In this document: positions 1 to 20,668 of the stretch, in pieces
Layout: the number at the start of each line of letters is the position of its first letter
How positions within the stretch are numbered: position 1 is the first letter of the stretch
NCBI RefSeq assembly: GCF_001418575.1
Contig: NZ_LIQR01000155.1
Location: 1-33,619, forward strand
DNA length: 33,619 bases
Reading direction: 5' to 3'
From: Peterkaempfera griseoplana
GTDB lineage: Bacteria; Actinomycetota; Actinomycetes; Streptomycetales; Streptomycetaceae
Notes under the pieces: model-generated
The model's input: the letters and a program-made list of their open reading frames with translations, nothing else
The model's database searches: none
Told to the model about the DNA's origin: nothing
Program-made: the position numbers and the translations under genes

Positions 1-565
1 GGGTGCGGGGGCGGGTGGTGTCGGGCCGGTCCCGCATCTGTCCGCCCGCCTGTTCCACCAGGTGGAGCAGTGCCTGGGTCTCCACGTCGGTGTCCGTCCC
101 CGGGGTGATCTCCCCGGTGACGCGGTCGACGTCGGAGAAGAAGAACTCGCGGAGCTGGTCCAGGACCCCCTCGTCGGTGGCGAGCATCTCGTACAGCTGC
201 TCGTCGGCCCCGTACGGGCGGGACTTGCGCTTGTTGCGGAACCGGTAGGTGAGACCGTGCAGCGGTCTGGGGCCAGCCACCGCCTCGGTGGCCCTGCCCC
301 GGTTGACCATGTCGAGGAGATGGGTGGAGGCCCACCGGGTGGTGGTCTCCCGGTCGAAGCCGTCGAAGACCTCCGGATGGTCCAGGAACAGCTTGACGAA
401 GACGTCGGCCTTGAGCTCGTTGGAGCGGTTGATCTTGCTGGGCATGCCCTGGTGCCACAGGCGCGCGAGCAGCCCGGTCAGGACACGGTCCATGTCCAGT
501 GTCTTGTAGTCGAGCCGGCTGATGCCGGGGTGGTGGAACGTCCCCAGGGAACCGCTCAGCGCCAT
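1..565 (-). CDS. Defence-operon protein downstream of the kinase, partial (MAD7-like position)
   Basis: The reading frame opens with ATG at 565-563 and stays open for 188 codons to the left edge, so the C-terminus is missing. A good ribosome binding site (GGAGGA) lies about 6 bases before the ATG, inside the end of the kinase gene; the two genes overlap by 10 bases, so translation is probably coupled. The visible protein starts MALSGSLGTFHHPGISRLDY and contains a conserved-looking stretch of 'SKINRSNELKADVFVKLFLD' type, with no membrane segment or catalytic motif I recognise. I do not know its function. Its place directly after a kinase in a methyltransferase/specificity/kinase operon matches the position of mad7 in the methylation-associated defence system, which is an inference from gene order only. 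Confidence 0.75.
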   Translation of the reverse strand, partial: MALSGSLGTFHHPGISRLDYKTLDMDRVLTGLLARLWHQGMPSKINRSNELKADVFVKLFLDHPEVFDGFDRETTTRWASTHLLDMVNRGRATEAVAGPRPLHGLTYRFRNKRKSRPYGADEQLYEMLATDEGVLDQLREFFFSDVDRVTGEITPGTDTDVETQALLHLVEQAGGQMRDRPDTTRPRT

Positions 566-3500
566 GTCGTCTCCTCCGCCCTCGCGGCGTCCCCTGCGAT
601 GCCGGCCACGGTGTCGGTCGCGGTGCCCGCGTCGACCGGATCGTCGCCGTCCGCACCGCCGTTGTCGTCGCCGGACCGTGCCGTCAGTTCTTCCATGTGC
701 AGGACGGAGTCTTCGGTGCGGTGGATCCGTCGCAGGTCGTGCCCGTGCGTGGTGAGGAGGATCTCCTGGTACGGCACGGCCCCCAGACGGTTCTTGAACA
801 CGGCGAGGGCGAGCTGCTGCCCTTGCAGGTCGGTCACGGACGGCCGGTAGCCACGCTCGAACCGCTGGAGGAGCTCGAACAGGTCGAGCCGGATGTCGAG
901 TTCGGCCGTGCCGCCCTGGCTGCCGGCCGGATCCCGGTAGCTCAGCCGCAGCGAGGTGCGCCCCGACTCGATGTACGGCGAGGCCGCCGCGTTACCCGGT
1001 TCGAGCCGGAACCCTTCTGCGGGGAAGCGGCGGAAGGTACGGATGGTACCGCCGGACACGTCGCGCACCTTCAGCGCGAGAGCATCGCCGATCCGCTCGG
1101 GTGCTACGAGTCCCTCACCACGGTTGAGCGCCCGCAGAATCCGGTCCCGCTCCTCGGTACCCGTTTGCGTTACGCGAGACAACAACGCCATGAAGTGCAG
1201 CACCGACGGGTACGGCAGCATCCGCTCCGCACGGTCCTCGTCGTGGAGTTCGAAGTAGAGCAGGCGGCGGGCCGCGTCCACGTAGTGGCGGTGGGCAGCG
1301 ACCTGGGAGACGCGTTCGGTGCCCGACCGGCCGAGCTGCTCGAACGCGCCGCGCAGCAGTACGCGATCGCGGTCGCCGCGCCCGTCGACCGCGACCAGCG
1401 CCCGGTCCTCCACGAGCCCGGCGTAGTCCAGACGACGGTCGAGCTGCGGCCGCGGAACCGCCGCCACATCGGCCTCGCGTAGCAGGGTAAGCAATCGGTC
1501 CCGCTCGCGCGGACTGCCGTCGGCGGTGGCCGGGGCGCCGAGATGGGCGGAGAAGTAGAAGCTGTCCAGGATCTCCTGACCGGAACCGGCCGCGTACAGC
1601 TGGTGGATCTCGGCGCAGTCACGGCCCGAGGTCAGGGTGTAGGCGAGCGCGGAGCGCAGGTCACGCAGGGTGATGTGGAGCCTTCCGCGCAGCTGGGTCA
1701 CCTCGTAAAGGCGGCGCAGACGACGCGCAACCTGCGGGCCGGCGGCGGGGTGCTGGAAAGTCTGGGCGTTGTGCCGGGCATAACAGGTGGCGGCCAGGTC
1801 ACAGCGCTCGCAGTCCTCCCAGAACCGGTCGTGTGTCATCCGATCGAGCATGCGCTCCAGGAGCGATTCGCCGTCCCGCGGTTCGCCGCCGGCGTCGAGG
1901 GAACGAGCCGCGACATCACGTGCGTTGAGGTTGACGACGGCGACGGCCTGCCCGGTGTCCCGGCCCGCCAGGCCGAGGTTGGCCACCTTGGCGAGGTGCG
2001 GGAAGCGGTCGTGGTGGTGGCTGAGGAAGTCGACCAGACGCCCCTCGTTGATGGCGATCAACCGGGTCTCCCCCGCGACCTGCCACGCCGATGCGTCAGC
2101 CCCGGCGAAGGGTGCGAAGAACTCGGCCAGTACGTCGTCGCCGCTGACCCCACCCTCGTCCTGGCTGCCGTCGTGATTGGTGCGGAACCGGTGCCCGGCC
2201 AGGGTGAAGTCACTGCCGTTGGCCCGGCGAGGCCCGAACTCGGCGCCGAGCTCGCGCGCCTGGCGTTCGAACCGCTCCAGGAAGGCCGTCTTGCCGTCGC
2301 CCGCGTTACCGGTCACCACGACCAGCGCGTGCCGGCCTTCCCGCAGCGCGGGCACGAGCTCCCGGTCCAGGGCCGTCTCGACGTACACGGACATCGTGTG
2401 CGGGTCGAGCCCGCGGGTGCCGCGGTTGCTGTGGCGGCTCTGGCTGTACAGCGTCTGCAGGTGGGCCACGAACGGGTTGGTATTCGGCTCGGGCTCCTGC
2501 GGCTCCTGACGACCGGTGCCGGGTTCCGACGGTGGCGCCGGGGGCTGCGCGGCCCGGTCGGACGAGGACGACGGGGCCACAGCCGGTGGTGGCGATGCGG
2601 GGGCGACGCGCGCGGATTCCAGCGCCTCCAGCGCGCGCAGCAGTTCCTCGGCCGTGGAGAAGCGCTCCGCCCGGTACGGGGAGATCGTGCGCAGCATGAT
2701 CTCGGCGAAGCCGGGCGCCAGGTCACCGAACCCGCTGTACGCGGTGCGCGGGTCCACGGGCGGCACACCGGGCGAGGGCCGCCCAACGCCCTCCCACGGG
2801 TACTGTCCGCCGGTCAGCGCCTCATACAGGGTGACACCGAGGCCGAACAGGTCGCGATCGGTGTAGCCGGAGGCATCGGCGGGCACCTGGTCCAGGTCCG
2901 GCGGGGAGTATCGAGGGCTTGTGTAGCTGTGCCCCTCGGAGGAGTCGGAGGTCTTGGAGATCCCGAAATCGATCAGCTTGACGCCGTCGTCGGTCCACAG
3001 CAGATTGCTCGGCTTGATGTCGCAGTGCCACACCCCGCGCTCGTGGATGTGACGCAGCCCGCGCGCAGTGTCGATCGCGAGCCGCAGCACGTCCGCCGCA
3101 CCCATCCGACCGCCACGGATCACCTCGGCGACGTCCTTGCCGTCGACGAACTCGAAGACCAGGTACGGGTACTCGTCCGGCGGCATCAGCCGATCCGCGT
3201 CCACCATCGACACCACATTGGGGTGCGGGGCGTTCTGCAGCCGGTCCAGGACGCCCGCCTCGCGGCGCAGCCGCTCCAGGACGGAGTCCCGGTCCCGCAG
3301 GACCAGCTTCACCGCCCGGTCGACACTCCGTATCGTGTCGTACACCCGGTAGGCCACACCGAACGAGCCGGGCCGGCCGAGACGGTGGCGCACCAAGTAC
3401 TTCGTACCGAGCTGGTGGTCGGCCGGCAGGTCGCGGTAGAACTCCGGGCCCCGCGGACCGTCCTGCACGGGCTGCCCGGCGGAGGCCGCAGGAGGAACCG

Positions 3501-4965
3501 GGGGAACTGCGGCCGAGGAGCCGATACGCCGGGCCGGAACCCGCCGCGCTCCTATCACCAGGTCCAGGCGGCGCAGCGCCTCCACGGCGGTCGGCCGGTC
3601 GTCTGGAGCCGTCGCGCACAAATTCTGCAACCAGTGAGCCAGTTCGACGCGGACCTCGGCGGCTTCGAGGACCTGCGCAGGGAGCCTCCCTGCCGCGTCG
3701 GCCTGCTCGGTGGCGGAGGTGAACGGCAGCTCGCCGGTGAGGAGCCGGAACCCGATGACACCGACCGCGTAGATGTCCGACTTCATGCCCATCGCCGCCG
3801 GGTCGGCATGGCACTCGGGCGCCAGATACGCGCGATCGGCGACCTGGTACGCCTCCCGCATGACCGTGTGGGCACGGCGCTGCGCGGTCTTCGCGTACTC
3901 GAAACCGGTCAGCATCGCCCGGCCGTCCTGCGCGATCAGCACGGTGGACGGGTTCAGCTCGCGGTGCGCGATCAGGCGGCTGTGCGCGTGGGCCAGGCCC
4001 ATCAGCACGTGACGGATCGTCCGCAGCTTCGCGTCGGCGGTCAGCGGGTCCGCGGCCCCGTTCAGGTGCAGGGCGAGGGCGTGCCCCGGAACGTCGTCGT
4101 AAACGGTGACGAAGGAGTCCCTGTCCTCGTCGGCGAAGAAGTCCCGCACCCCGACCACGTTCGGGTGCGAGGGCAGCTTGCCGAGCGCCTCGTACGCGAT
4201 GCCGATCCGCTTCTGCTGCTGGAGCCGCTCGGCCTCCGGCGCGTACGGATCCGCCCTGCGGACGGAGAGCCGGACCGTGCCCGACCCCTGCACCGCGAGG
4301 GCGTTCTTCGCCCGGTACTCGCGATGGACGCCGTCGCCCTCCTCCGGGCCCGTCTCGCTCAGTCGCTCGATCACTTCCCAGCTACCGAACCGCAGGGGGC
4401 CCGACGGCGGCCGGGACGAGCCCTGCACCCCACGCACGATCAGCTCGTGGTGTGCGGAGACGTCCGTGTCGAAGCGGTTGGTCGAGGTGGGTACGCGGCT
4501 CGCGTCCGCGAGCCGGCCGATCAGGTCCGGGAGGGTGACGGTGTCACGGGCGTCGTGCTGGTGGGGCGTCCGGTCGACGAGCAGGGCGTCGGGTGCGGAC
4601 AGGACGACGAGGGCGTCCGTGTAGAGCCGGGACAGCGGACGGTGGGCCGTCTCCAGGAGCGTCTTCAGCTGCTTGGCGTGTCCGCGCAGTTTCGGCAGCG
4701 GGGAGCGGAACGGCGCCCGGCGAGAGGGCTGCCAACGGCCGCCGTCGACCTCGATGCGGCCCCGGGTGCCCTTGACGTCGATGACGTACACGGCGTGCCC
4801 GGTGACCACGACGAGGTCGACCTCGAACAGCTCGCTCCGGTTGTACGGAATCTCGACGGAGTGCAGGACCGTCCAGTCGTCGGGGGCGTGATCACGTAGG
4901 TGCGCGATCACCCTCCGTTCGGCATCGTTGACGGCCTTCCCAACGGCAACGATCCTGACACCCAT
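556..4965 (-). CDS. NERD / pseudokinase / Ser-Thr kinase / P-loop ATPase defence protein (PglW or MAD6-like)
   Basis: A 1469-residue multidomain protein. Residues about 8-105 form a NERD nuclease-related domain (EVDLVVV ... VIDVKG). Residues about 190-470 are kinase-shaped but carry HRELNPSTV instead of HRD and GFE instead of DFG, so this copy is probably a pseudokinase. Residues about 515-800 are a second kinase with a glycine-rich loop, AVKLVL lysine (about 551), HCDIKPSNLL (about 643) and DFG, and look active. After a Pro-rich linker comes a C-terminal ATPase-like half with Walker A GNAGDGKT (about 885) and a Cys cluster CERCDLAATC (about 1055). The ATG at 4965 is preferred because it overlaps the stop of the specificity gene (TGATG); the 26 codons upstream lie inside that gene. 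The architecture matches PglW of Pgl/BREX and the MADS kinase; a role in controlling methylation or restriction by phosphorylation is inferred. Confidence 0.88.
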   Translation of the reverse strand: MGVRIVAVGKAVNDAERRVIAHLRDHAPDDWTVLHSVEIPYNRSELFEVDLVVVTGHAVYVIDVKGTRGRIEVDGGRWQPSRRAPFRSPLPKLRGHAKQLKTLLETAHRPLSRLYTDALVVLSAPDALLVDRTPHQHDARDTVTLPDLIGRLADASRVPTSTNRFDTDVSAHHELIVRGVQGSSRPPSGPLRFGSWEVIERLSETGPEEGDGVHREYRAKNALAVQGSGTVRLSVRRADPYAPEAERLQQQKRIGIAYEALGKLPSHPNVVGVRDFFADEDRDSFVTVYDDVPGHALALHLNGAADPLTADAKLRTIRHVLMGLAHAHSRLIAHRELNPSTVLIAQDGRAMLTGFEYAKTAQRRAHTVMREAYQVADRAYLAPECHADPAAMGMKSDIYAVGVIGFRLLTGELPFTSATEQADAAGRLPAQVLEAAEVRVELAHWLQNLCATAPDDRPTAVEALRRLDLVIGARRVPARRIGSSAAVPPVPPAASAGQPVQDGPRGPEFYRDLPADHQLGTKYLVRHRLGRPGSFGVAYRVYDTIRSVDRAVKLVLRDRDSVLERLRREAGVLDRLQNAPHPNVVSMVDADRLMPPDEYPYLVFEFVDGKDVAEVIRGGRMGAADVLRLAIDTARGLRHIHERGVWHCDIKPSNLLWTDDGVKLIDFGISKTSDSSEGHSYTSPRYSPPDLDQVPADASGYTDRDLFGLGVTLYEALTGGQYPWEGVGRPSPGVPPVDPRTAYSGFGDLAPGFAEIMLRTISPYRAERFSTAEELLRALEALESARVAPASPPPAVAPSSSSDRAAQPPAPPSEPGTGRQEPQEPEPNTNPFVAHLQTLYSQSRHSNRGTRGLDPHTMSVYVETALDRELVPALREGRHALVVVTGNAGDGKTAFLERFERQARELGAEFGPRRANGSDFTLAGHRFRTNHDGSQDEGGVSGDDVLAEFFAPFAGADASAWQVAGETRLIAINEGRLVDFLSHHHDRFPHLAKVANLGLAGRDTGQAVAVVNLNARDVAARSLDAGGEPRDGESLLERMLDRMTHDRFWEDCERCDLAATCYARHNAQTFQHPAAGPQVARRLRRLYEVTQLRGRLHITLRDLRSALAYTLTSGRDCAEIHQLYAAGSGQEILDSFYFSAHLGAPATADGSPRERDRLLTLLREADVAAVPRPQLDRRLDYAGLVEDRALVAVDGRGDRDRVLLRGAFEQLGRSGTERVSQVAAHRHYVDAARRLLYFELHDEDRAERMLPYPSVLHFMALLSRVTQTGTEERDRILRALNRGEGLVAPERIGDALALKVRDVSGGTIRTFRRFPAEGFRLEPGNAAASPYIESGRTSLRLSYRDPAGSQGGTAELDIRLDLFELLQRFERGYRPSVTDLQGQQLALAVFKNRLGAVPYQEILLTTHGHDLRRIHRTEDSVLHMEELTARSGDDNGGADGDDPVDAGTATDTVAGIAGDAARAEETTWR

Positions 4966-6389
4966 CAGTCGGCGGCCTCCTCGATGGCGGTGGTGAGCAG
5001 CGAGAGGGCCTGATCCTCCAGGGCGTCGGCTTCGTCGCGGCATTTGTAGGCGTGGCGGACGGTGGCGGCGATGCGGGCGCGGGCGGCGGGGGGTGCGAGG
5101 GGGACCGGCAATTCACGCAGGAACCTCGGGTGGTATTCCTGCTGCTTGCCCCCAACGCTGAAGGACCGAAGGGCACGGAATGCTGCCTCGGACCTGAAGA
5201 AGGCGAACAGGTAGGCACCAGGTACGTCAGAGTCCCCGCTGACGACACGAACGTAGTCCTGGCTGTACGCGTGCTTGAGCCATGACCCAGTCACGAGAAT
5301 GGAGCGGCTGTACACCTCGTTCTCGCCGAGGGTGCCGCGGGCGGCAATCAGAATGGTCTCGTCCTGGAGCCGAATGTCATCAGGAGCGTGCGCTTCACTG
5401 ATCCAGCGCCCCTCAGGGCGGAGCCAGAACGACTGGCGTTGGCCGATGAGGCGGATGCCATGCTCTGAGTCGCTGTCGATTCGCTTGAACCGCGCGCCCG
5501 TACGCAGGCTGCCGCCCTCGCAGATGGAGCCGAGCGATCGGCCACTCACGGAGCCTAGCTTCTCGATCAGCTGTTGTGCTCTTGGCGCGAAATTCAAAGC
5601 TCGCAGCGAGGCAGAGCCCACGCTCGGAACCTCGAATCCGAGGTCACGCTCCTGCTGTTGCCAGCCGATATCGATCAGCTCAGGTAGCCCCGCGCTCGTG
5701 AAGAGGTCCTTCGTCGCACTGACCGAGGACGACTGGAACTCGGCGCGCAGCCGCGCGCACTCCTCCACCAGGTCGTGGATCCGGCCTTCGAGCTCTGCCC
5801 CCAACCGCGGCACCGGCAGCCCCGCGATGTGATGCGGCTCGATGTGCTTCACGGCCGAGCCGTACACCGACCCCCGCACGAGCGACTCACCGAACTTGCT
5901 GAGTAGGAAGGCGTAAAGATACCCGGACTTGATCTTCTCCGGATCGGGCTCGACCTTGAGCGTGTCCTGCGAAGACCAGCAGTCACCCATGTCGGGCCGA
6001 ACATATGCCCGCCGACCGGCGTTGAATCCCGAGCACGAGATCAGCGTCATCCCGGGCTTGAGCTGGAGATACGACAAAGCCGACGACTCCGCGTCCGACT
6101 TTCGTAGCCGGGGCAACCCGGTCAGGTCGGCCGCCATCATGTCCTTCGTCCCGAGGAACGGCACGCTGTGCTCTGGATCGGTGAGATAGACCCGACGGAA
6201 CATGGGCCCGTTGAAGATCCCCCCGTTGTGCCCCGCCGTCAGACTCGCCAGCGGCTGCGTCCGCGGCAGCTGCTCCAGCAGCTTCTTCGTCTTCATGGAC
6301 CCCGCCACATACGGCGAGGCATCGAGCCGAAGCCCCTGATCCGCGAACCAGTCCGACTTCACCGGGTTGGACAGCTCGGCGACCTTCAC
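4965..6389 (-). CDS. Type I restriction-modification specificity subunit (HsdS / MAD5-like)
   Basis: 474 residues, the usual size for a two-domain specificity subunit. It contains two target-recognition halves of Methylase_S type. The first runs to about residue 225 and ends in the typical 'HHIAGLPVPRL' motif followed by a helix; the second runs to about 450 and ends with 'FLRELPVPLAPP' and a helix. These subunits dimerise with the methyltransferase and choose the target sequence. The start is GTG at 6389, overlapping the methyltransferase stop in a GTGA arrangement, so the two are translationally coupled. The stop overlaps the kinase start by one base. No HsdR gene accompanies it. The best match in position and type is the S subunit of a methylation-associated defence operon; a plain type I S subunit is the alternative. 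Confidence 0.9.
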   Translation of the reverse strand: MKVAELSNPVKSDWFADQGLRLDASPYVAGSMKTKKLLEQLPRTQPLASLTAGHNGGIFNGPMFRRVYLTDPEHSVPFLGTKDMMAADLTGLPRLRKSDAESSALSYLQLKPGMTLISCSGFNAGRRAYVRPDMGDCWSSQDTLKVEPDPEKIKSGYLYAFLLSKFGESLVRGSVYGSAVKHIEPHHIAGLPVPRLGAELEGRIHDLVEECARLRAEFQSSSVSATKDLFTSAGLPELIDIGWQQQERDLGFEVPSVGSASLRALNFAPRAQQLIEKLGSVSGRSLGSICEGGSLRTGARFKRIDSDSEHGIRLIGQRQSFWLRPEGRWISEAHAPDDIRLQDETILIAARGTLGENEVYSRSILVTGSWLKHAYSQDYVRVVSGDSDVPGAYLFAFFRSEAAFRALRSFSVGGKQQEYHPRFLRELPVPLAPPAARARIAATVRHAYKCRDEADALEDQALSLLTTAIEEAAD

Positions 6390-8542
6390 GCCCCGGCCCC
6401 CGTTCCCGCCAGCCGTGCCGTACGCGGGTCCACGCCCGGAACCGGGTACTTGGACCGGAACTCCCGGTACTTCTCCGCGATCACCGGCAGGTCGTTGTCG
6501 ATGACCTTCTTGCTGCGGGTCAGCGGTCGGGTCACCTCCTTGCCCCGGATGCGTAGCCGCTCCATGACGACCTCCGTCTCCACCACGATCTCCCCGTTGG
6601 GCTCACGCTTGTAGAGCTCGTTGCCGCGTCGGTCGAAGCCGACCTTCTCCGCGACGGCCATGAAGACGGGGTACGCCTTCTCCGTCCCGAGGTCGTGGTT
6701 TTGGATCTCCTGCCGGGTCTTGCGCTTCAGGAAGAGGAGCGAGGTGAGGATGTTGACGTTGGCGTCGACAACGAACGTCTCCACCGGCAGCTCGACGCTT
6801 GCGAGAACCCAGCAGTTCCGCAGGATGTACCGGCGGATCGCCTCGTCCGTCGGCCCCGGGTTCGACAGGATGCCGTTCGGCAGGACGATTCCGATCCGCC
6901 CGCCCGGCTTGACCCACTCGATGGCTCGCTGGATGAACAGCTGCTCCGGTGCCATGCTCGACGGCACGCTGGTCGTGCTCGCCTCGACCTCGCCGGTCTC
7001 CTTGTTGCGGCCCCACGACCGAGCGATCCCGTCACGGAACGAGCCGAGCACCGACTCATCGCTCACCGGGATGTCCGCGCCGAACGGCGGGTTGGTCAGG
7101 AGTACGTCCACGGTGGGCTTGTCGAGCGGGATCTTCTTCTTCGCCGCCTCCACACCCGAGAGGTGTCCCCGCGGGAAGGCGAGCGAGTCCATGTGGAAGA
7201 CGTTCCCCGTGGTCTGCGCGAGCGTCATGATCGCCATGGTTGTCGCCCGCACCAGGAACGGGTCGAAGTCGGCGCCGAACAGGTGCTCGTCCGCGAACTC
7301 CTTGAGCTTGTCGCCGTACCGCTCCCGCTCCTCCTGCGTGTCCGGGAAACCGAGCGTGCCGGCCTCCTTCTTCCAGGTGCGGTGCAGGTGCTTGAGGGTG
7401 GCCTGGAGGAAGCCACCAGTGCCGCAGGTCGGGTCGAGGACGGTCTCGTCCTCCTTCGGGTCGAGCATCTCGACCATCAGGTTGACCGCGCCGCGCGGGG
7501 TGAAGTATTGGCCTCGGTCGCCGCGCAGGTTAGTGCCGACGAGCTCCTGATAGGCGAGGCCTTTGGCATCGACGTCCGTACCGATCAGGTCGTACGGGGC
7601 GAGCTCGCTGACGATGAAGGCGAGCGCCCGGTCGGAGAGAGTGATCTCGTCCGTGGGTTTGAATACGTCCTTGTACTCGGTCTTGACGTCTTCGAAGAGC
7701 AGCTTGACGCGCTGGCTGATGGCCGCCCGGCCGTTCGCGTCGAACATCTCCTTCAGACCGGTGCGGAACCGGCCGTGCACGGAGCCGTGGCTGATCCGCT
7801 CGTCGTACATCTTGGCGAAGAGCAGGTAGAGGAACTGCCAGAAAGCGGCGTCCTTCGGCATGCCCTCGTTGCCGTGGATGTAGTTGTGGCAGCGCCGGAA
7901 GGCGATCTTGAGCATCTCAGGGTCGGCCTGACGCAGCCGCTGGTGCGAGGCGACGGTACGACTGCCGAGGGTGCCGTCGGCGACCTCCCAGTCGCTGCGG
8001 TCCTCGAAGTCGGCACCGAAGTCGCCGACCACCTTCTTGAGGAAGAAGAAGTCGACACCGTCGGTCCACATGCCGTCCGCGCACTGCGGGCGGTCCTCGT
8101 TGCCCATCAGTTCCTGGAGCTCCTCCAGGTCCTTCCGGGCCTGGTCGGGCTCGCGGAGCTTGACGACGTTCTTCCCGCGCTTGGGCTCCGGCTTGCAGAT
8201 CACGACCCGCCGCAGGTTCGCCACGGTGTGCGGGGCGCCGGACTCGAAGATCGCGATGTCGGCCTTCTTGCTCCGCTTCCGCTTGGCACCCTCCTCACTG
8301 ACCGTGATGGAGAAGTCGCGCTGCATGTCACCGGGGTCGATGCCGTGCTCGTGCACCAGGGCTCGGGCGATCCGCTGCCGGACCTTCTCCTTCGCCGTCT
8401 CCGGGATCGCATCACCGGAGATGTAGTCGACGACCTGGCCCTCCTTGAGGGCCGTGACCTTGGGCTCGGAGCCCTCCGCGACAGGCTCCGCGTCCTCCTC
8501 GGGCCGCTGCGGGATGTCCAGGTCCAAGGTCAGTTCCTCCAT
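6386..8542 (-). CDS. N6-adenine DNA methyltransferase with HSDR_N-like N-terminal domain (HsdM / MAD2-like)
   Basis: 718 residues from the ATG at 8542. Motif I DPTCGTGGF (about 370) binds S-adenosylmethionine and motif IV NPPFG (about 483) is the adenine-N6 catalytic loop, so this is an HsdM-type enzyme. Residues about 40-170 resemble the HSDR_N domain: KKADIAIF, then RRVVICKPEP, then WTDGVDFFFLKK. In active members the second motif is usually E-x-K; here an Ile stands where the Glu is expected, so cleavage activity is doubtful. I reject the upstream start at 8629 because the extra 29 residues are low-complexity and not protein-like. It is the first gene of the overlapping operon MTase-S-kinase-unknown. 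With the specificity subunit it would methylate host DNA to mark self. Confidence 0.9.
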   Translation of the reverse strand: MEELTLDLDIPQRPEEDAEPVAEGSEPKVTALKEGQVVDYISGDAIPETAKEKVRQRIARALVHEHGIDPGDMQRDFSITVSEEGAKRKRSKKADIAIFESGAPHTVANLRRVVICKPEPKRGKNVVKLREPDQARKDLEELQELMGNEDRPQCADGMWTDGVDFFFLKKVVGDFGADFEDRSDWEVADGTLGSRTVASHQRLRQADPEMLKIAFRRCHNYIHGNEGMPKDAAFWQFLYLLFAKMYDERISHGSVHGRFRTGLKEMFDANGRAAISQRVKLLFEDVKTEYKDVFKPTDEITLSDRALAFIVSELAPYDLIGTDVDAKGLAYQELVGTNLRGDRGQYFTPRGAVNLMVEMLDPKEDETVLDPTCGTGGFLQATLKHLHRTWKKEAGTLGFPDTQEERERYGDKLKEFADEHLFGADFDPFLVRATTMAIMTLAQTTGNVFHMDSLAFPRGHLSGVEAAKKKIPLDKPTVDVLLTNPPFGADIPVSDESVLGSFRDGIARSWGRNKETGEVEASTTSVPSSMAPEQLFIQRAIEWVKPGGRIGIVLPNGILSNPGPTDEAIRRYILRNCWVLASVELPVETFVVDANVNILTSLLFLKRKTRQEIQNHDLGTEKAYPVFMAVAEKVGFDRRGNELYKREPNGEIVVETEVVMERLRIRGKEVTRPLTRSKKVIDNDLPVIAEKYREFRSKYPVPGVDPRTARLAGTGAGA

Positions 8543-8798
8543 CGGCGTGCTGCTGCTTTCCTGTGCTCGGTGGTGCGGCTGGGGGCCTGCGCCCCGGGCG
8601 GTCCGTGCGTGCGCCGTCACAGCCGCCACCTGTGATCCTACGGCCCGAGGGCGCCACCGAAGGCGCGTTTCGCCAGGCCCGGAGGATGCGCGGTCTGGTG
8701 TCTCCGGACCCTACAAGGGAGCACTGACAACGCTCGGGCGGAAGCGGACGCTGAGGCCGGGCCAACGGCGCCCCCAGCCCTTTTCCCCCTGGCCGCGG
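8543..8798. other. 256-bp intergenic region between the AIPR gene and the methyltransferase operon
   Basis: No convincing reading frame lies here. It separates two leftward genes and could hold the promoter of the methyltransferase operon, but I see no clear -35/-10 pair. A weak AGGAAAG about 15 bases before the methyltransferase ATG is the only ribosome-binding-like motif. Confidence 0.5.
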
Positions 8799-10910
8799 TC
8801 ACCTCTCCGTCGGCTCGTTGCCCTCCCGCAATCGCACTGCCAGAGCCAGCTCGTCCAGCGACCCCTTACCCGGCACGAACCACCGGATCGTGCCCTGCGT
8901 CGAGCCGTCCACCCCGGACGCCTCGAAGCGCATTTTCCGCGCGAGGCCACTGGGCGAGTACCACGCGTCGTCGGCGTGCCACTGCAAGGGGTTACGCCCC
9001 GCCTCGTTGCTCCACGTCGCCTGGGCCCGCCGCGGATCCGCCGCCAGCCACTCAGTCATCTCACGGCGCTCGGGCTTGCTGTACGGGCGGAACTCCAGGA
9101 CCGTGCCCCCCTCGATCTCGCCGGCGGCGACCAGGGTTGTCACGGCGTTCACCTTCCGCCCCCGGGCCTCGGCCGCAGCTACCTGATAGTCCTCGTTGAG
9201 CGCCGGTGCCTTCTCCTCGGAGTCGAGCTTGCGCAGGGCCGCACGTACCACTCGTTCGATACGTTCGGTGTTCCGGACGGCGGCGATGATGTGGCTGGAC
9301 GTGCCGTACTCGTTGTCGATCGCGTCGAGCACCCAGGACAGGGTGTCACGGACCAGGCCGGGTACCTTGGCGAGCTCCGTCGCCCAGTCGCCCCCCGGGT
9401 CCTCGATGGCCCTGGTGTCCAGGCGGCGGTAAACGATGTGGGTGACCAGGAGGTCGCCGTAGAAGGCCGCCGCGTCGGCGCGCCAGACCAGCCCCTCGCG
9501 CAGGAGCTGCAACTGCGCCCGGACCTCACGGAGAAGTTCGACACTGCGCCAAACCTTGAAGACGTTCGGTTCAGGACCGAAGGTCTCCTGGTAGTTGCGG
9601 TCCTCCCACAGCCCGGCGAGGTTGTCGTCACGCTTGGCCACGGCTGCGAGCCGGGCGTTCGGGCTGACGGCCGCGAGGGCCTCGGCGGCCTCGGTGATGG
9701 AGCAGCCGTGCGCCGGATCAGGCAGCGTCTCACCGCGCTTGATGACGTAACTTCGCTTGAGGAGCATGGCGAAGTCATCGCGAAGCCTGACCTGGCCGGG
9801 GTCAAGTGACTTGAAGTCGCGCTCCTCGATCGGGTTCTGCGTGTTCGTGGTGGTGGTCACCTGGTCGCCGAAGCCGGGCGGGCAGTCCTCCAGGGAGATC
9901 AGGCGCACAAGGACCCGCCCGTCCTGCGCCGCGCCGGTGTCCTCGGTGAAGGCTCGGTAGATGGCACTCACCGTCTGCGCACCGTTGACCACGCTGACGC
10001 CGGACAGCTGGAAGTTGCCCACTTTGCCGGGCAGCGCCCGGCCGATCGGCTGGATCGACTCGCACAGCATGGTGATGCCGTTGCTGAAGTACCAGAAGTG
10101 CTCGGGCGCTTCCCGCAGGGTCTCCCTGATCTTGGAGTTGACGTCGCTCTCGTCGAGTGAGTCGCGGATGTTCCGGGCGAAGAGGCCGCGCCGGTGCTCC
10201 TCATAGAGATCTGCGAGGTCGGGGACGGTCATGGTGCCGTACAGCGCCCTGTACGGCGTCGACTCCTGGCCGAAGCACTCCAGCTGCACCTTGGTGTCGA
10301 TCTTTGGTGCGGCGGAGTCGCCGAAAATCGCGCGGTGGAAGTCGCGCAGGTCGAGAACCTTGACTTCAACCATGTCGCGGACGACCTGGTTCTGCTCGTC
10401 CTGCTTCATCTTGATCAGCTCGCGTACGCCGTCGCTGAGCGGCGCCTCGCGCATCAGGGCGAGCACCAGAGTGATCTTCGGGGTGCCGGATTCGTAAGCC
10501 CGTTCGACGTCGGGGACGAACGGCTGGAAGCGGCGGTTGAACCGGCCGAAGTTCCGGTCGAGCATCAACTCCAGACCGTGGAACATCTTGTGCACCTCGG
10601 CCTCGCCGAAGCCGCCCCTGTTCTGGTCGCTCCACTTCGCCTGCACCAGGCAGATCCGGGAACGTGTGGCGCTGAAGTCCACCGCGATCGAGTCAAGGCC
10701 CTGATCGTCCTGCCCGTCGAAGACCCTCGCGGCGGCGACCCGGTCACTGCACGGGTGCTCGATCTGCGCGGCGAGCGCGGCCAGACCACGGCTCAGGAAC
10801 GCCTGATGGCGATTGGCCTCCGACAGGCGCTCCTGGTCCGACATGTCGATGAGGCCGGTGAAACGGTCCTCGATCGCCTTGCGGACGTACCCCACGTGCA
10901 GTCTGCTCAC
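8799..10910 (-). CDS. AIPR-family abortive phage infection protein with nuclease-like N-terminus and RAMA-like C-terminus
   Basis: 703 residues starting at GTG 10910, with GGGGTGG as possible ribosome binding site. The core matches the AIPR family: ARNIRDSL, FWYFSNGITMLCE (about 273), VSVVNGAQTV (about 306) and TQNPIEERDF (about 358). N-terminally, GLDSIAVDF followed by LVQAKW (about 70-95) fits a PD-(D/E/Q)xK nuclease core with Gln in the third catalytic position. The last 120 residues (LVAAGEIEGGTVLEF ... AWYSPSGLARKM ... RWFVPG) look like a RAMA/DUF4357 module, a domain found attached to restriction and adenine-methylation proteins. It lies 256 bases upstream of the methyltransferase on the same strand, which suggests it is the damaging arm of that system. 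AIPR members are known from abortive phage resistance; the partnership here is inferred. Confidence 0.88.
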   Translation of the reverse strand: MSRLHVGYVRKAIEDRFTGLIDMSDQERLSEANRHQAFLSRGLAALAAQIEHPCSDRVAAARVFDGQDDQGLDSIAVDFSATRSRICLVQAKWSDQNRGGFGEAEVHKMFHGLELMLDRNFGRFNRRFQPFVPDVERAYESGTPKITLVLALMREAPLSDGVRELIKMKQDEQNQVVRDMVEVKVLDLRDFHRAIFGDSAAPKIDTKVQLECFGQESTPYRALYGTMTVPDLADLYEEHRRGLFARNIRDSLDESDVNSKIRETLREAPEHFWYFSNGITMLCESIQPIGRALPGKVGNFQLSGVSVVNGAQTVSAIYRAFTEDTGAAQDGRVLVRLISLEDCPPGFGDQVTTTTNTQNPIEERDFKSLDPGQVRLRDDFAMLLKRSYVIKRGETLPDPAHGCSITEAAEALAAVSPNARLAAVAKRDDNLAGLWEDRNYQETFGPEPNVFKVWRSVELLREVRAQLQLLREGLVWRADAAAFYGDLLVTHIVYRRLDTRAIEDPGGDWATELAKVPGLVRDTLSWVLDAIDNEYGTSSHIIAAVRNTERIERVVRAALRKLDSEEKAPALNEDYQVAAAEARGRKVNAVTTLVAAGEIEGGTVLEFRPYSKPERREMTEWLAADPRRAQATWSNEAGRNPLQWHADDAWYSPSGLARKMRFEASGVDGSTQGTIRWFVPGKGSLDELALAVRLREGNEPTER

Positions 10911-10922
10911 GATCCACCCCTG

Positions 10923-11100
10923 TCAATTGATTCTGGCTGCGGTGTGGCGCAGGTCGTGCAGACCGATTTTCGGCAGGTCGAGTACGGTGCTGCGCTTGCG
11001 GAGTTGGTCGAGGACCCACTGGGGGCGCTGCGGCGCGCCGTCGGGACGAGCGAAGACGAGGCCTTCCAGTCGCCCGTCGGGTGGGCCGCCATCTGGAGGT
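10923..11100 (-). pseudogene. Tyrosine recombinase (phage integrase) fragment
   Basis: On the minus strand the frame reads LVFARPDGAPQRPQ and then LPKIGLHDLRHTAARI before a TGA at 10923-10925. The HxLRHT motif with the preceding 'LVFAR-DG' block is the catalytic box of actinobacterial tyrosine integrases. Both the N-terminal part and the final Tyr motif are gone, so it is a remnant. It ends only 12 bases from the AIPR start codon. Confidence 0.7.
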
Positions 11101-11118
11101 CGGCGGTGGGTGCAGACG

Positions 11119-11355
11119 TGCCGGCGTGAGCTGCTGGACCGCACGTTGATCTGGAATCAGCGCCACCTCTGCCACGCTCTGCGGGACTTTGAGCGGTTCT
11201 ACAACTGTCATAGGCCCCATCAGGGCATCGCAAACGCCTGTCCGTTGCACTCCTTGCCCCGGGCGATCACCGATCCAGGGCAGATCGCCCGCCTCGACAT
11301 ACGTAGGCGGGAACGCCTGGGAGGCATCCTTCATGAGTACGAACATGCCGCGTGA
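11119..11355 (+). pseudogene. Transposase C-terminal fragment (rve / IS3-type integrase core)
   Basis: The frame reads CRRELLDRTLIWNQRHL, then FERFYNCHRPHQGIAN and ends LGGILHEYEHAA with TGA at 11353-11355. The 'YN-HRPHQ' block is typical of the C-terminal end of DDE integrase-core transposases. No DD(35)E core precedes it and no terminal inverted repeat is visible, so this is a dead piece of an insertion sequence. It abuts the integrase fragment head to head. Confidence 0.75.
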
Positions 11356-11379: not shown

Positions 11380-11511
11380 AGGGCAGGATCGGTGGCAGTC
11401 GTCGGCGATGACGAGGTCGAAGGACTCAGTGGGCAGATCGGGCCGGTAGCGGACTCCCGACGTCGGGTTGCCCCCGGACAGCACGCGAAGGACTTCACCC
11501 TCCAGCGCTGA
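11380..11511 (-). pseudogene. HsdR-type helicase fragment (type I restriction subunit remnant)
   Basis: A minus-strand frame reads VRYRPDLPTESFDLVIADDCHRS. This matches the motif II region of type I restriction R subunits, where 'P-ETFD-IV-DECHRSIY' is usual. The similarity breaks right after CHRS, and only about 40 residues remain. The fragment slightly overlaps the 3' end of the PLD nuclease gene in another frame. It implies that a restriction subunit once stood here and was lost. Confidence 0.6.
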
Positions 11512-12868
11512 CGCGGTGCTTGTCGATTTCAGCGAGAAAGTAGGCGTGCTGGGCGTCCGCGAAGTCACGGCCGCGGATGAGGTTACCTTCCTCCATCCGG
11601 TACGTGCGCTCTTTGGAGCCCTGGAAGGAAAGCCAGTTGAAGGACGTGGTGACGCAGGTGTGGTCAAAGATGAGGATCTTGGCGTGGGTGCCGCTCAGCC
11701 GGTTGAAGGTGAACGTCTTCGGGTAGGCCTTGGCCAGATCTTCCAGATTCTGAACAGCCTCGGGGTCACACTTGCGGTCGTGGAGGGAGAAGCCGTAGGC
11801 GATATCGACGCGGATTCCACGGCGTACCCGGCTTTCGAGTTTGTTCATGAAATCTTCGGTGACGACGGACTTCTTGATCCAGGGAGACATGATCAGGACT
11901 CGCTGTGTGGCCTGTGTCAGAGCTTCCTGAAGGAGATCGGGGTGTTCGAAGACGCTGACCCCGCGGACCTGGATCTGCTCTTCAGCTTCCAGGGCAGGCT
12001 GGACTACGTCGGCCACACGGTGAGCGTGCGAGCGGGTGCTGTCGACAGGGACCCGAATACTCTCGAGGCCCTCATCCAGCATCGGGCGTTCGGCGGGTGG
12101 ATCGACGCGAATGTCCAGGGTGTCCGCTCCGCCGAGGCTGATCAGCGCGATGTCGTGTGCGCCGGAGAGCTTGCCGTCGAGCACGACGGCAAGCTGGATC
12201 TCCGCGCGGTCCGGATCCGTGTAGACAAGTAGGTCCACTGGTAGGTAGCGGGGGGTGCGCGGCTGCTTAATGCGGCGGACCGCCAAAACCGTGAGGGAGC
12301 TGTCAGGGATCGTGCGGAGGAGATTGTTGATCTTCTCCGGGGTGAGGTCGTCCATATGAACGGGGGCTGTGGAGGCAGCCGGGAGCAGCAGCAGATCCTC
12401 GTCTGCAGCCTGACTGGCACGGATCAGCAGAGCGGGGTCGTAGGGTTGGACTTCTCTGAGGGTCTGGTCGAAGTAGAACCTCATCGTCTTGCGGGTCGGC
12501 TGGATGGCGGCGTGTTCGTTGGCGACCTGATCGCCCAAGGGTGTGAGTCGGACGCGCTCGTCGGCTCGTCCGGCAGTGGGGTCGAGGCGCAGATGCCCCC
12601 GGTACAGGCTGTCAGCGAGGGTCCGGTTGACGGGATCGCTGGGGAAGCCGAGAAGTCCGCTGATGTCCGCTGGGGCGGTGACGCCTGCCTGGACCAGGCG
12701 CAGGGTAGTCTCGGTCAGGAGCGGGAGATCTTTGCGCTCCTGGGCGTCGACCTCGACGCTGAGCGTGGTGACGGGCAGCCCTGCGGGAACGATCGCTACC
12801 AGGTTCAGCCCGTCGCGGGCGTTGCCGAACAGGTCGGCGAGCAACGTGTACCGGCTAGCGGTGGGCAT
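11495..12868 (-). CDS. mkoB: PLD-family nuclease (Mokosh type I MkoB-like)
   Basis: 457 residues from ATG 12868, which overlaps the stop of the helicase-kinase gene by 14 bases and indicates a coupled two-gene operon. The C-terminal part holds one phospholipase-D motif, HAKILIFD (HxKx4D, about residue 393), followed by TSFNW, the usual Ser/Asn-containing strand after the motif. A second, weaker region begins at 'RVLIMSPWI' (about 320). Single-HKD proteins normally act as dimers, as in Nuc and BfiI. The N-terminal 130 residues contain a winged-helix-like stretch (TLADSLYRGHLRLD ... VRLTPLG). Paired with a kinase-helicase, this matches the MkoB nuclease of Mokosh, which acts against phage nucleic acid. 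The family link is from memory of domain architecture. Confidence 0.8.
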   Translation of the reverse strand: MPTASRYTLLADLFGNARDGLNLVAIVPAGLPVTTLSVEVDAQERKDLPLLTETTLRLVQAGVTAPADISGLLGFPSDPVNRTLADSLYRGHLRLDPTAGRADERVRLTPLGDQVANEHAAIQPTRKTMRFYFDQTLREVQPYDPALLIRASQAADEDLLLLPAASTAPVHMDDLTPEKINNLLRTIPDSSLTVLAVRRIKQPRTPRYLPVDLLVYTDPDRAEIQLAVVLDGKLSGAHDIALISLGGADTLDIRVDPPAERPMLDEGLESIRVPVDSTRSHAHRVADVVQPALEAEEQIQVRGVSVFEHPDLLQEALTQATQRVLIMSPWIKKSVVTEDFMNKLESRVRRGIRVDIAYGFSLHDRKCDPEAVQNLEDLAKAYPKTFTFNRLSGTHAKILIFDHTCVTTSFNWLSFQGSKERTYRMEEGNLIRGRDFADAQHAYFLAEIDKHRVSAGG

Positions 12869-15800
12869 CGCGGACCTCGCAGTCGTCTCGGTGGGTTTCC
12901 ATGTAGTCGAGGACCTCGCGCAGTGGGCCGGGCTTGCTCTTGCAGAACGCAGCGTCACCGATGATCGTCAGCCCGAATCGGGCCCGTGAGAGGGCTACGT
13001 TGATTCGCCGCCGATAGGGCGCACCGATGAACCCGAATCGTCCTTGGTCGTTGCTGCGAGTGACGCTGACAACGGCGAGGTCGCACTCGCGTCCCTGCAC
13101 GGCATCGACGGACAGAACCTCCACGTCCAGGTGCGGAAGCTGAACAGCTGCCAGCTGCCGACGTAGTTCGTCGACCTGTCGGCTGTAGGGCGCGATCGCT
13201 AGGACCTCCAGGCGGTCGCCCTTCGGCGGCTCGATGATGCGGTGCCCGATGGCACTGTCGATGCTCCGCAGCCTCTGCACGACCTGCTGCGCTTCGGCGC
13301 GGTTGACCACACTGGTCTCCCCGCCGGCGCGGCTGGCCTCCCGGCGGGCCGCTCCCAGGGATCTGGTGTCGATCCACAGCACCGGCTTCCCGAGCGCCGC
13401 ATATTTGTGGAGCTGGTGAGTGCCGGGGGACTTCAGCTGGCGGCGGTAGAAGCAGTTGCTGATGAGGTTCCCGATTGCCGGGGTCATGCGGTACTGCTCG
13501 GTGAGCATGTGCCGTACTGGGAAGGTGGTCTGTCGGACCAGATGGTCGAACAAGGTGGTGGTTACCAGCTCGGGGGTGAGCCGGTGCTCCTGCATGATGG
13601 CCCTATCCCTGAGCAGGTCTTCGTCCAGCGGTGGGAGCTGTTCGGTATCGCCGACCAGGATCCAGCGCTTGGACCGCACGAGCGGCACAAGGGCTTCCGT
13701 TGCCGTCGCCTTCGACGCCTCATCGAAGATGCACAGGTCGAACTCCAGAGCCCGGGCGGCTGGGTGCCCCAGAAACCCGATGGCGGTTCCGCCGACGACG
13801 TTCCTGGTCCGCAGGTACTCCGCGACGATCTCCCGGTCGCTGCCCATCCGCTGCAGCCAGTCGCCTTGGACGGCGATGACCTTCATCAGGTCCCGAGCTT
13901 CACGGCTGTCTCCGAGTAGCGCGGCAACCGTGTCCCGGGCCTCCAGCGAGGTCCGCTCTTCGCTGAGCGTCAGGTCGCCGCCGATTTCTCTTTGGACATC
14001 GGTGAACACCTCGGCGCGGCGTTCCAGCAGGGCGTCGCGGCGCTGGCGTGCCGAGACGATCGCCTCGCCGAGTGCCTGCTCTGAGGTGGCGTGTTCGCCG
14101 TCACCGTGTTCCAGCTTTGTCAGGTGAGCCTCGACGTGGGCGAGGTCGGCGGCTACGGATGCGAGCTCCTCCAAGTGCAGGGCGCCTCGCAGGTGACGGG
14201 GCTCTTGACCGTGTCGGAGGGCCATCTCTTCCAGGTAATCCTGGGCTCGGTGGCGGGCTCGCTGTACCCACTTCTTCAGTTGGGGGTCGAGCAGAAGATG
14301 CCGAGCGCCCGGCGCCACGCCGGGGTCGTCGGGGCGGCCCAGCCGGACGATGCCAGCGACGCCGGCCTTCTCGAGCCGGTTCAGCGCGTTGTCGATGGCG
14401 ATGTGGGTCTGGCTGACGATGAGGATCTTCATGCTGGGGTCGCGTCTGAGGTTTTGCTCGACGATCTCGGCGATCACCGTGGTCTTTCCCGTCCCTGGAG
14501 GACCCTCGACCACCAGGAGCGGCTGCGTGCCCAGGGCGTGGCGCACCACGTCGCGCTTGCTGTCGTCCAGGTCCTGCCGGACCCACGCGGTGACCTCAAC
14601 TGGCGTGCCGACGCCAGAGTGTCCGGGGTCGAGCACGATCGACGGCAGGTCCGGATTGGCGATCGCCCCTTCGCTGACCAGGGCCGCCAGAGCATCCCGC
14701 TGGCGATTCAGAGAGACCCGGGTGGGGCCGAGATAGGGCACGAGGACTCCGCGTGCGGGCAGCTTCGCCCCAGGGCGGCACCGCAGAGTGACGATGTCCT
14801 CCTCGCGGTCGACGGCGACAACGTCGCCCCGTTCGATCGGGCGGCCGCGCTCGTGCTCGGCGACCGACCACTCCTCCCCAACCTCAGCCGTGGCGGTCTG
14901 GGACAGATGAACCCGCCACAGCCGGCCGTCACTGCCTGGGGATGCCAACGTGTACGTCAACGGCTTGCGGCCCCCAGCAGCGAGGTCGTCGCGCGCATCC
15001 AGCAGACGCGACCACCCCTCAAACAGGTCCGCTGGCGCGGCGGAGAGGCGTTCCTGCTCTGCTTGCGCGCGTTCGTCGACCTGCCGGTCCAGCCGGTCCA
15101 GCATCCCGTCGAAGCCGTTGCGCGCCGCCTTTGCGCTCGGCTCGGTGAACGTGAACGTCAACGACGAGCCGATATCGACCCGGGACTCGCACCACCTGGC
15201 CTGCTGCTCCGGTGGCACCTGCTTCACGTGGATGACGAGCACCCGGTTCAGTTCGGGAACCGTGTCATCGTGGACGATCTTTGCCAGCAGGCTGCGGCCC
15301 GCAAGCTGCACGACGGACTCGTCGATGGATCCAGTGACTTGATCCTTCCGGAAGTCCGCATGCACCGGACCGCTGAAGTCCTCCAGGAGAATCGACTGCG
15401 CCCGCTGCCACTCATCGGGGCCAGCGCCGTTCATCTCTCCTTTCGGTAGTCCCAAAATGTTCTCCGCGGCACTCTTGGTCAGCTTCAGCCATAGGTGGTT
15501 GCCGCGCCGCGCGGCACTGTCGTCCAGCTGCTGCTCCGCGCGAGTCAGCTGCTGCTCCAACACGCACGCGTTCGCTGGTCGCCCTCCAGGCTGCAGATCC
15601 ACACAGGCCCGCAGGATGTCGCGGAGTTCTTCCTCCAGGTCCAGGTTGTCGAGGACGGGCAGCAGGTCCGGATAGTCCTTCGCGCCGCCGCCTGACAGCG
15701 CCTGCACAGCCAACACTCCCCAGCTGAAGACGTCCCGGACGAACGGGATAGTGTTTTGGCGTTCCGGCGGCGAGTACAGGGCCGACCGGTAGCCAGCGAC

Positions 15801-16316
15801 CGTCTCCCCGGCCGAGAGGTTGTCCCGGATCTTCGCGATGCCGAAGTCGGCGAGCTTGACCACACCGTCAACGGTGACCAACACGTTCCCCGGCTTGACA
15901 TCTCGGTGCTCGATTTCCTGTAGGTGCGCGCACGCCAGAGCCGACAGCAGCGGTGCTCCGACCTCCCTGTAGAAACGCCCCCAACCCATCGGCTTGCCGC
16001 GCTCGAGCTCCTCCCGCAGGTTGTGCTCGACCCACTCCAGTACCAGATAGGACTGTCGCAACTCTGGAGACCATCCGGCGTCTAGCATCCGCACGATGTT
16101 CGGATGCTCCGCCTTCCCCAGCCGCTTCAGCGACTCCTGCTCCCGTTGCAGGAACTCCGTCGACAGTCGACCGCGACCCTCGTCGAGGAGCTTCACTGCC
16201 ACGGTCTCGCCGGTTGGGCTCTGCAAGTCGATCGCCCGGTGGACCACCGACATGCCGCCCTCACGCGCCCCGTCCCCCAACAGCAGAAACCGGTTGTTGA
16301 TGCGCTGCTCCGGCAT
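12855..16316 (-). CDS. mkoA: Ser/Thr kinase - SF1 helicase fusion (Mokosh type I MkoA-like)
   Basis: 1153 residues from ATG 16316, chosen because the kinase glycine loop starts right after it (LLGDGAREGGMSVVHRA) and a GAGGGGG ribosome site lies about 10 bases upstream. Residues 1-270 are an intact kinase: AVKLLDEG, HRDVKPGNVL (about 140), ADFG (about 158) and SPPE. The middle (about 290-590) is a linker with possible nucleic-acid-binding folds. Residues about 595-1140 are a superfamily 1 helicase of the Upf1/DNA2 (COG1112) type: GPPGTGKTT (about 608), FDEASKAT (about 867), GDTEQLPP (about 892), DAVQGRECD (about 1075) and INVALSRAR (about 1108). The next gene is a PLD nuclease, so the pair fits Mokosh type I. 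The frame upstream of 16316 is open but carries a different dead gene. Confidence 0.85.
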   Translation of the reverse strand: MPEQRINNRFLLLGDGAREGGMSVVHRAIDLQSPTGETVAVKLLDEGRGRLSTEFLQREQESLKRLGKAEHPNIVRMLDAGWSPELRQSYLVLEWVEHNLREELERGKPMGWGRFYREVGAPLLSALACAHLQEIEHRDVKPGNVLVTVDGVVKLADFGIAKIRDNLSAGETVAGYRSALYSPPERQNTIPFVRDVFSWGVLAVQALSGGGAKDYPDLLPVLDNLDLEEELRDILRACVDLQPGGRPANACVLEQQLTRAEQQLDDSAARRGNHLWLKLTKSAAENILGLPKGEMNGAGPDEWQRAQSILLEDFSGPVHADFRKDQVTGSIDESVVQLAGRSLLAKIVHDDTVPELNRVLVIHVKQVPPEQQARWCESRVDIGSSLTFTFTEPSAKAARNGFDGMLDRLDRQVDERAQAEQERLSAAPADLFEGWSRLLDARDDLAAGGRKPLTYTLASPGSDGRLWRVHLSQTATAEVGEEWSVAEHERGRPIERGDVVAVDREEDIVTLRCRPGAKLPARGVLVPYLGPTRVSLNRQRDALAALVSEGAIANPDLPSIVLDPGHSGVGTPVEVTAWVRQDLDDSKRDVVRHALGTQPLLVVEGPPGTGKTTVIAEIVEQNLRRDPSMKILIVSQTHIAIDNALNRLEKAGVAGIVRLGRPDDPGVAPGARHLLLDPQLKKWVQRARHRAQDYLEEMALRHGQEPRHLRGALHLEELASVAADLAHVEAHLTKLEHGDGEHATSEQALGEAIVSARQRRDALLERRAEVFTDVQREIGGDLTLSEERTSLEARDTVAALLGDSREARDLMKVIAVQGDWLQRMGSDREIVAEYLRTRNVVGGTAIGFLGHPAARALEFDLCIFDEASKATATEALVPLVRSKRWILVGDTEQLPPLDEDLLRDRAIMQEHRLTPELVTTTLFDHLVRQTTFPVRHMLTEQYRMTPAIGNLISNCFYRRQLKSPGTHQLHKYAALGKPVLWIDTRSLGAARREASRAGGETSVVNRAEAQQVVQRLRSIDSAIGHRIIEPPKGDRLEVLAIAPYSRQVDELRRQLAAVQLPHLDVEVLSVDAVQGRECDLAVVSVTRSNDQGRFGFIGAPYRRRINVALSRARFGLTIIGDAAFCKSKPGPLREVLDYMETHRDDCEVRDAHR

Positions 16317-20545: not shown

Positions 20546-20668
20546 GAAAGGCTCAGCTCCGGTTGCTCGCGGCGGACCGACACCGGACACCTTCCATCGC
20601 ACCAGACGGACGCCCATGCGCCCGTGTGGCTGTTACGCTGCAGGTTTCCCTGCCGCGATACTGGCCCC
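20546..20668. other. Probable element/chromosome junction next to the recombinase
   Basis: These 123 bases separate the start of the serine recombinase from a core flavin reductase gene transcribed the other way. In elements of this kind the attachment site often lies just upstream of the integrase gene, so one hybrid att site is expected here. I could not identify the crossover core, because the other end of the element is not in the window. Confidence 0.35.

Follow-up and report, generated by a model that had tools for sequence, protein, structure and literature searches.

An actinobacterial MADS variant with a dedicated AIPR protein and a putative Ssp/Dnd-like restriction half

The methylation-associated defense system (MADS), reportedly described by Maestri et al. 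in 2024, is said to comprise mad1-mad8. MAD1 is a small DNA-binding protein encoded before MAD2, and in another defense system, MZA, the MzaE component is an AIPR protein. According to a 2026 review, how MADS restricts DNA is unknown, as it is for other systems listed there (PMC12904381), and MADS has been grouped with systems that combine an ABC ATPase with a Toprim protein, which would fit MAD3/MAD4 (PMC12409363). The SspFGH module damages DNA lacking the host mark and is toxic to cells without the modification (PMC8092258). Coupling of immunity and suicide of the PrrC type is established for restriction-modification (R-M) systems, and AIPR proteins have been described with a HEPN domain (PMC3506569).

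Here, we describe a MADS-type locus in Peterkaempfera griseoplana, propose which of its proteins restrict unmarked DNA, and relate it to a linked AIPR protein. The window is the whole of a 33,619-nucleotide contig (C63 of genome G000), and the finding covers positions 1-10910. A sequence-only reading had placed five leftward genes in this stretch, the last four overlapping; all five are present, and the MAD7, MAD6, MAD5 and MAD2 genes overlap or abut one another. The gene product it could not name proves to be MAD7 (NF047733), represented here by its N-terminal third. Since relatives retain homologues of the leftward genes at 44-96% identity, these are not chance open reading frames. The order is AIPR-MAD2-MAD5-MAD6-MAD7-MAD8, without MAD3 or MAD4:

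8799..10910, minus strand: AIPR protein, 703 aa (PF10592)
6386..8542 (ORF to 8629), minus strand: MAD2, N6-adenine DNA methyltransferase (NF047738, PF02384)
4965..6389, minus strand: MAD5, specificity (S) subunit (NF047740)
556..4965, minus strand: MAD6 (NF047741); ORF to 5043, with the ATG at 4965 the most likely start
2..565, minus strand: MAD7, N-terminal 188 aa (NF047733), truncated at the contig end
L004:3-1085, first ORF of contig C493: MAD7, C-terminal 360 aa (NF047733)
L004:1085-6772, contig C493: MAD8, 1895 aa (NF047742)

A gap of about 256 bp, identical in close relatives, separates the AIPR stop from the MAD2 ATG; AIPR is separate from MAD2 rather than operonic with it. At the other end of the locus, a MAD7 search of the same genome located the remainder of the truncated gene on contig C493. 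The window fragment scores 212 bits over profile positions 2-192, and the C493 part scores 412 bits over 194-529 (NF047733, cut-off 410). Because the ends of C63 and C493 abut on the relative L036 (positions 16386/16384) and the two pieces sum to 548 aa (188+360), the length of the L036 ortholog, we read the break as an assembly gap and the MADS genes as uninterrupted. Right behind MAD8, C493 carries a fragment of a SAM-dependent methyltransferase gene (L004:6997-7575).

The assignment of the core to MADS, as an actinobacterial variant, is strongly supported by profile scores. MAD2 (1009 bits against a cut-off of 720, NF047738), MAD5 (588 against 400, NF047740), MAD6 (774 against 460, NF047741) and MAD8 (213 against 175, NF047742) exceed their NCBIfam equivalog cut-offs, as does MAD7 from its two contig parts. 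The earlier proposal of a MADS-type system in MADS gene order, with profiles of MADS, Pgl and BREX as the yardstick, is thus borne out by MAD2, MAD5, MAD6 and MAD7 and by MAD8 on C493. For the locus genes, the NCBIfam models of PglW (196 bits against 990) and PglX (14 against 400) stay far under their cut-offs, ruling out BREX/Pgl as the family.

The genome-wide best score for MAD3 (NF047739) was 20.8 bits against 420, at background level, and tblastn found neither MAD3 nor MAD4 at the locus. Because the MAD2 and MAD5 genes overlap by 4 bp, no MAD3/MAD4 lies between methyltransferase and S subunit, just as had been read from the letters, and left of the window the locus continues with nothing more than the remainder of MAD7 and then MAD8, with no MAD3/4 and no HsdR. 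Upstream of MAD2 at the locus we saw no HTH gene (the probable MAD1); AIPR stands there. We call the locus a variant rather than a typical MADS because MAD3 is missing. Of the earlier description as reduced or variant, the second word stands and the first does not, given that Bacteroidota MADS also lack MAD3/4 and that five loci combine AIPR with them. MAD3 lies outside the minimal MADS core, Bacteroidota MADS being likewise without it.

To place the restriction activity, we turned to MAD6, MAD7 and MAD8. No HsdR was found among the locus genes, including the part on C493, nor any Ssp/Dnd modification genes, MAD2/MAD5 being present instead. MAD6 combines four parts:

4600..4929, minus strand: NERD domain (ORF residues 39-148; PF08378)
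3544..4170, minus strand: pseudokinase domain (HRE/GFE motifs)
2794..3390, minus strand: active-looking kinase domain (PF00069; HCDIKPSN, DFG)
832..2388, minus strand: SspF-like P-loop ATPase part (ORF residues 886-1404), hereafter MAD6C

The NERD domain shows an E-x-D...(D/E)-x-K pattern, of which the K and the E-x-D are retained in 41 loci. HRE and GFE replace HRD and DFG in the first kinase domain, marking it as a pseudokinase; the second retains H-x-D-x-K-P-x-N and DFG (PF00069 gives 186 bits for the whole protein, with the best stretch at 552-750). In Bacteroides finegoldii MAD8 is followed by a PP2C-type protein phosphatase (L119:23118-23783, plus strand), which may be the counterpart to the MAD6 kinase. 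MAD6C contains a Walker A motif, GNAGDGKT, that is invariant across 41 loci, and matches the PADLOC SspF profile at 98.5 bits over positions 36-526 of 560, which is nearly all of SspF.

The two remaining proteins point the same way. Several different MAD7s match SspG (PADLOC, E 2e-7 to 9e-12), and the mid-region of MAD8 matches SspH (4e-5) or DndH (1e-6; both PADLOC), the SspG and SspH family matches being individually weak. A genome-wide SspH query is uninformative, as the motor hits housekeeping proteins of the FtsK type in nearly every genome, and we used the mid-region match alone. A profile built from 12 MAD8s aligned by hhalign with two DndH-like proteins from other actinobacteria, L144 (prob 99.4, E 1e-21, 610 columns) and L143 (prob 98.6, E 5e-16), and the L144 gene has DndF- and DndG-like neighbors. 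These alignments cover the D...E-x-K region of MAD8, where R1169-x-D1171...E1190-x-K1192 is the same in all 29 sequences compared, which span Actinomycetota, Bacteroidota and Pseudomonadota; we take it as a conserved PD-(D/E)XK-like motif and a predicted nuclease center. The C-terminus of MAD8 matches TdpA and HerA motors. By these comparisons MAD6C-MAD7-MAD8 correspond in order to SspF-SspG-SspH/DndH, and because of the Ssp/Dnd-like order and the MAD8 motif we place restriction, most likely, in these three proteins.

MAD6- and MAD7-like genes also occur without MAD2/MAD5 (L103, L099, L105 and L107, in genomes G559, G632, G492 and G604). In L103 a pPIWI-RE cluster and also a UvrD-like helicase are found close to them; in L099 the nearby genes encode a type IIG enzyme together with a DrmD-like helicase. 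The kinase/restriction half of MADS seems to recombine with other defense cores.

We then asked how AIPR (PF10592, 116.5 bits against a gathering cut-off of 25) relates to this core. Reading the gene neighborhoods of 31 retrieved MAD5 loci, we found AIPR directly upstream of MAD2 in most of the actinobacterial ones. MAD7 occurs in 14 of 395 Streptomycetaceae genomes, and all 14, which are not phylogenetically independent of one another, encode on that contig, no more than about 13 kb away, an AIPR scoring >1000 bits; the co-occurrence in relatives on which the earlier reading depended is therefore seen in every MADS genome of this set. Neither of the outcomes that the earlier reading had set out as refuting it was observed. 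A fifteenth AIPR above 1000 bits sits at a contig edge (L081), and weaker AIPRs without MAD7 are found in about 47 other genomes of the 395. In a maximum-likelihood tree a 100/100 branch sets apart all MADS-type AIPRs, with that of L081 included by its score. Across 24 loci, pairwise AIPR distances track those of MAD2, MAD6, MAD7 and MAD8 (Mantel r 0.95-0.96) and of MAD5 (r 0.82). In one sub-lineage (L050, L097, L108-L110) AIPR sits on the opposite strand, between the MAD5 and MAD6 genes, and the linkage is kept despite this relocation. Between the same two genes, also on the opposite strand, an XRE-type regulator was seen in one Streptomyces sub-lineage (L049, L050, L051, L108-L112), with DUF5753 in L051 and homologues in the other loci. 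The MADS of Streptomonospora, Nocardia and Haloactinopolyspora show no AIPR, MAD3/4, AbiE- or DUF6577-type genes in the stretch seen, so AIPR is not required in every MADS.

The boundary of the conserved DNA bears on the same question. By blastn against six relatives (91-94% DNA identity), the common block has its edge just upstream of AIPR:

10926..10927, no strand: edge of the DNA block common to relatives, 16-17 bp upstream of the AIPR start

Because identity begins there, the shared unit opens with AIPR. An independent abortive-infection gene merely travelling with MADS in a defense island would fit the frequent occurrence of AIPR genes near R-M systems (PMC3506569, PMC2292703) and the presence of a Mokosh-like pair next door. 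This passenger role is nonetheless unlikely, and we give it very little weight, because of the 14/14 co-occurrence, the single clade, divergence that stays correlated down to 44% identity, a linkage that survives rearrangement, and a shared block that stops at AIPR and excludes the adjacent Mokosh genes. AIPR is a dedicated MADS part; its role we infer below.

The Mokosh type I-like pair occupies 11495-16310 (minus strand) and comprises a PLD-like MkoB (258 bits) and a kinase-SF1 helicase MkoA (749 bits, full profile). Since the shared block ends at 10926/10927, Mokosh is ruled out as part of the system, and judged by this boundary the pair is an independent neighbor of the MADS unit. A tyrosine integrase remnant (10927-11240, minus strand), ending in ..GLHDLRHTAARIN and a stop, terminates at the breakpoint before AIPR. 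At that breakpoint relatives carry a conserved CGATAGGGT-type sequence; because the window is without it, AIPR may use another promoter here than in relatives. No sigma-70 promoter above chance was found near AIPR, and scans of the window for tRNA genes and Rfam families were negative. A large serine recombinase with Resolvase, Recombinase and Zn-ribbon domains (18866-20617, minus strand) is possibly a mobility gene of the defense island.

Intact MAD3 and MAD4 stand alongside AIPR in five actinobacterial loci (L050, L097, L108, L109 and L110; in L055 MAD3 is broken), so AIPR adds to MAD3/MAD4, and the idea that it replaces them is ruled out. Bacteroidota MADS have neither AIPR nor MAD3/4; in several (L059-L064, L118) AbiEi/AbiEii or DUF6577 genes lie directly before MAD2, and in one locus an HTH gene alone does. 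Outside MADS, a related AIPR adjoins an intact HsdR-HsdS-HsdM set in L113, showing that a full R-M system can have an AIPR at its side, and further relatives in L114 and L116 have paired type I methyltransferases as neighbors.

Within the N-terminal 240 residues of AIPR we found a candidate active site:

10635..10718, minus strand: predicted PD-(D/E)XK motif of the Mrr/Shedu type, N-terminal in AIPR

Its residues D65, D69, G71, D73 and Q90-A91-K92 do not vary among 30 sequences, the most distant of them at 29% identity. The AlphaFold2 model of the N-domain is confident (pTM 0.78; the full-length model reaches 0.40) and places the motif at strands 74-78 and 85-92, with D73 and Q90-K92 on adjacent strands and helices flanking. 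Foldseek returned no significant match for the full-length model (FokI at prob 0.96, E 0.085) or for the N-domain (Shedu at prob 0.51, E 0.05), and a PDB sequence search with AIPR found no relatives. From motif and topology, we predict AIPR to be a nuclease of the Mrr/Shedu type.

This D...Q-x-K motif, together with the lack of an HsdR at the locus, could mean that restriction is chiefly the work of AIPR, which would replace HsdR and cut the DNA that MAD2/MAD5 have not marked as self. The sequence-only reading had cast AIPR in HsdR's place, with phosphorylation perhaps setting its state. That substitution is not supported, and we consider AIPR as main nuclease quite improbable: the locus has its own restriction-type half in MAD6C-MAD7-MAD8, MADS loci without AIPR retain exactly this module, and the L113 relative adjoins an intact HsdR.

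The main rival to a suicide nuclease held in reserve is a DndB-like regulator that tunes expression or modification and does not cut nucleic acid. The N-terminal part of DndB has been assigned to AbiU1/AIPR (PMC3506569), the restriction half here is Dnd/Ssp-like, and AIPR is monocistronic and position-independent. Against this, no DndB model in PADLOC or NCBIfam hits AIPR at E <= 0.01, and the invariant D...Q-x-K suggests catalysis; we judge such a regulator rather unlikely. We prefer to see AIPR as a suicide nuclease that the complex keeps as a back-up, a reading on which we are about evenly balanced.

These observations lead us to a four-step model of methylation-gated restriction by an SspFGH/DndFGH-like module with AIPR as back-up effector, which as a whole we hold to be somewhat probable. 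Going by their families, MAD2 and the specificity subunit MAD5 would methylate a motif in the host genome. MAD6C, MAD7 and MAD8 would form an SspFGH/DndFGH-like complex that attacks unmarked DNA, to which MAD8, by homology, would bring a PD-(D/E)XK-like center and an FtsK/HerA-type motor. The NERD-pseudokinase-kinase part of MAD6 may sense invasion or a failure of protection and switch the complex through phosphorylation. Finally, AIPR would be a dedicated back-up effector kept silent by the complex and released when restriction fails, a role suggested by its linkage to MADS and by analogy with PrrC held by EcoprrI.

More tentatively, MADS may be a chassis in which a MAD2/MAD5 methylation core and a kinase-controlled restriction module carry lineage-specific suicide modules, silenced until restriction is defeated; we regard this as possible. 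The attached parts would be the AIPR nuclease in actinobacteria, AbiEi/AbiEii or DUF6577 in Bacteroidota, and the MAD3/MAD4 ATPase pair in pseudomonadota as well as in part of the actinobacteria, and the kinase or the methylation complex would silence the attached module and release it upon defeat. The homology of MAD6C-MAD7-MAD8 and the MAD8 D...E-x-K offer a concrete, mutable candidate for the active site of MADS restriction, and the Ssp/Dnd-like half points to a way in which MADS could break down DNA that lacks the mark. AIPR and the AbiE-type toxin genes that Bacteroidota often carry in that position suggest abortive modules coupled to a methylation-based system, a coupling that would test the immunity-suicide idea of PMC3506569. 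Annotating MADS as mad1-8 would miss AIPR.

Compared with described systems, the locus is closest to MADS. The order of MAD2 and MAD5-MAD8 is that of a Piscinibacter plasmid locus (L117), but MAD3/MAD4 are missing, no HTH gene is seen before MAD2, and AIPR is added upstream. The NERD-kinase architecture of MAD6 resembles the PglW kinase of Pgl/BREX type 2, although the locus genes fall well short of the cut-offs for PglW and PglX. MZA provides a precedent for an AIPR protein inside a multi-gene defense system, but our AIPR lies far under the MzaE cut-off (NF041935, 45 bits against 1050) and further MZA genes were not found here. With the AIPR/AbiU1 proteins of type I R-M loci it shares PF10592 and relatives beside HsdR-HsdS-HsdM or methyltransferase pairs, whereas the MADS AIPRs form their separate 100/100 group and the model shows an alpha/beta N-domain, not HEPN. 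PrrC-EcoprrI and PARIS/OLD-type guards likewise couple a suicide effector to an immunity complex; AIPR, however, is no PrrC, OLD or Toprim protein by the models run, and no substitute for MAD3/4. SspFGH/DndFGH offer the nearest counterpart of the restriction half, with an ATPase, a middle protein and a large nuclease/translocase-type protein that are homologous and stand in the same order. In contrast to those modules, the self mark here would be N6-methylation, at a locus without Ssp/Dnd modification genes, and in MADS the F component is fused behind a NERD-pseudokinase-kinase.
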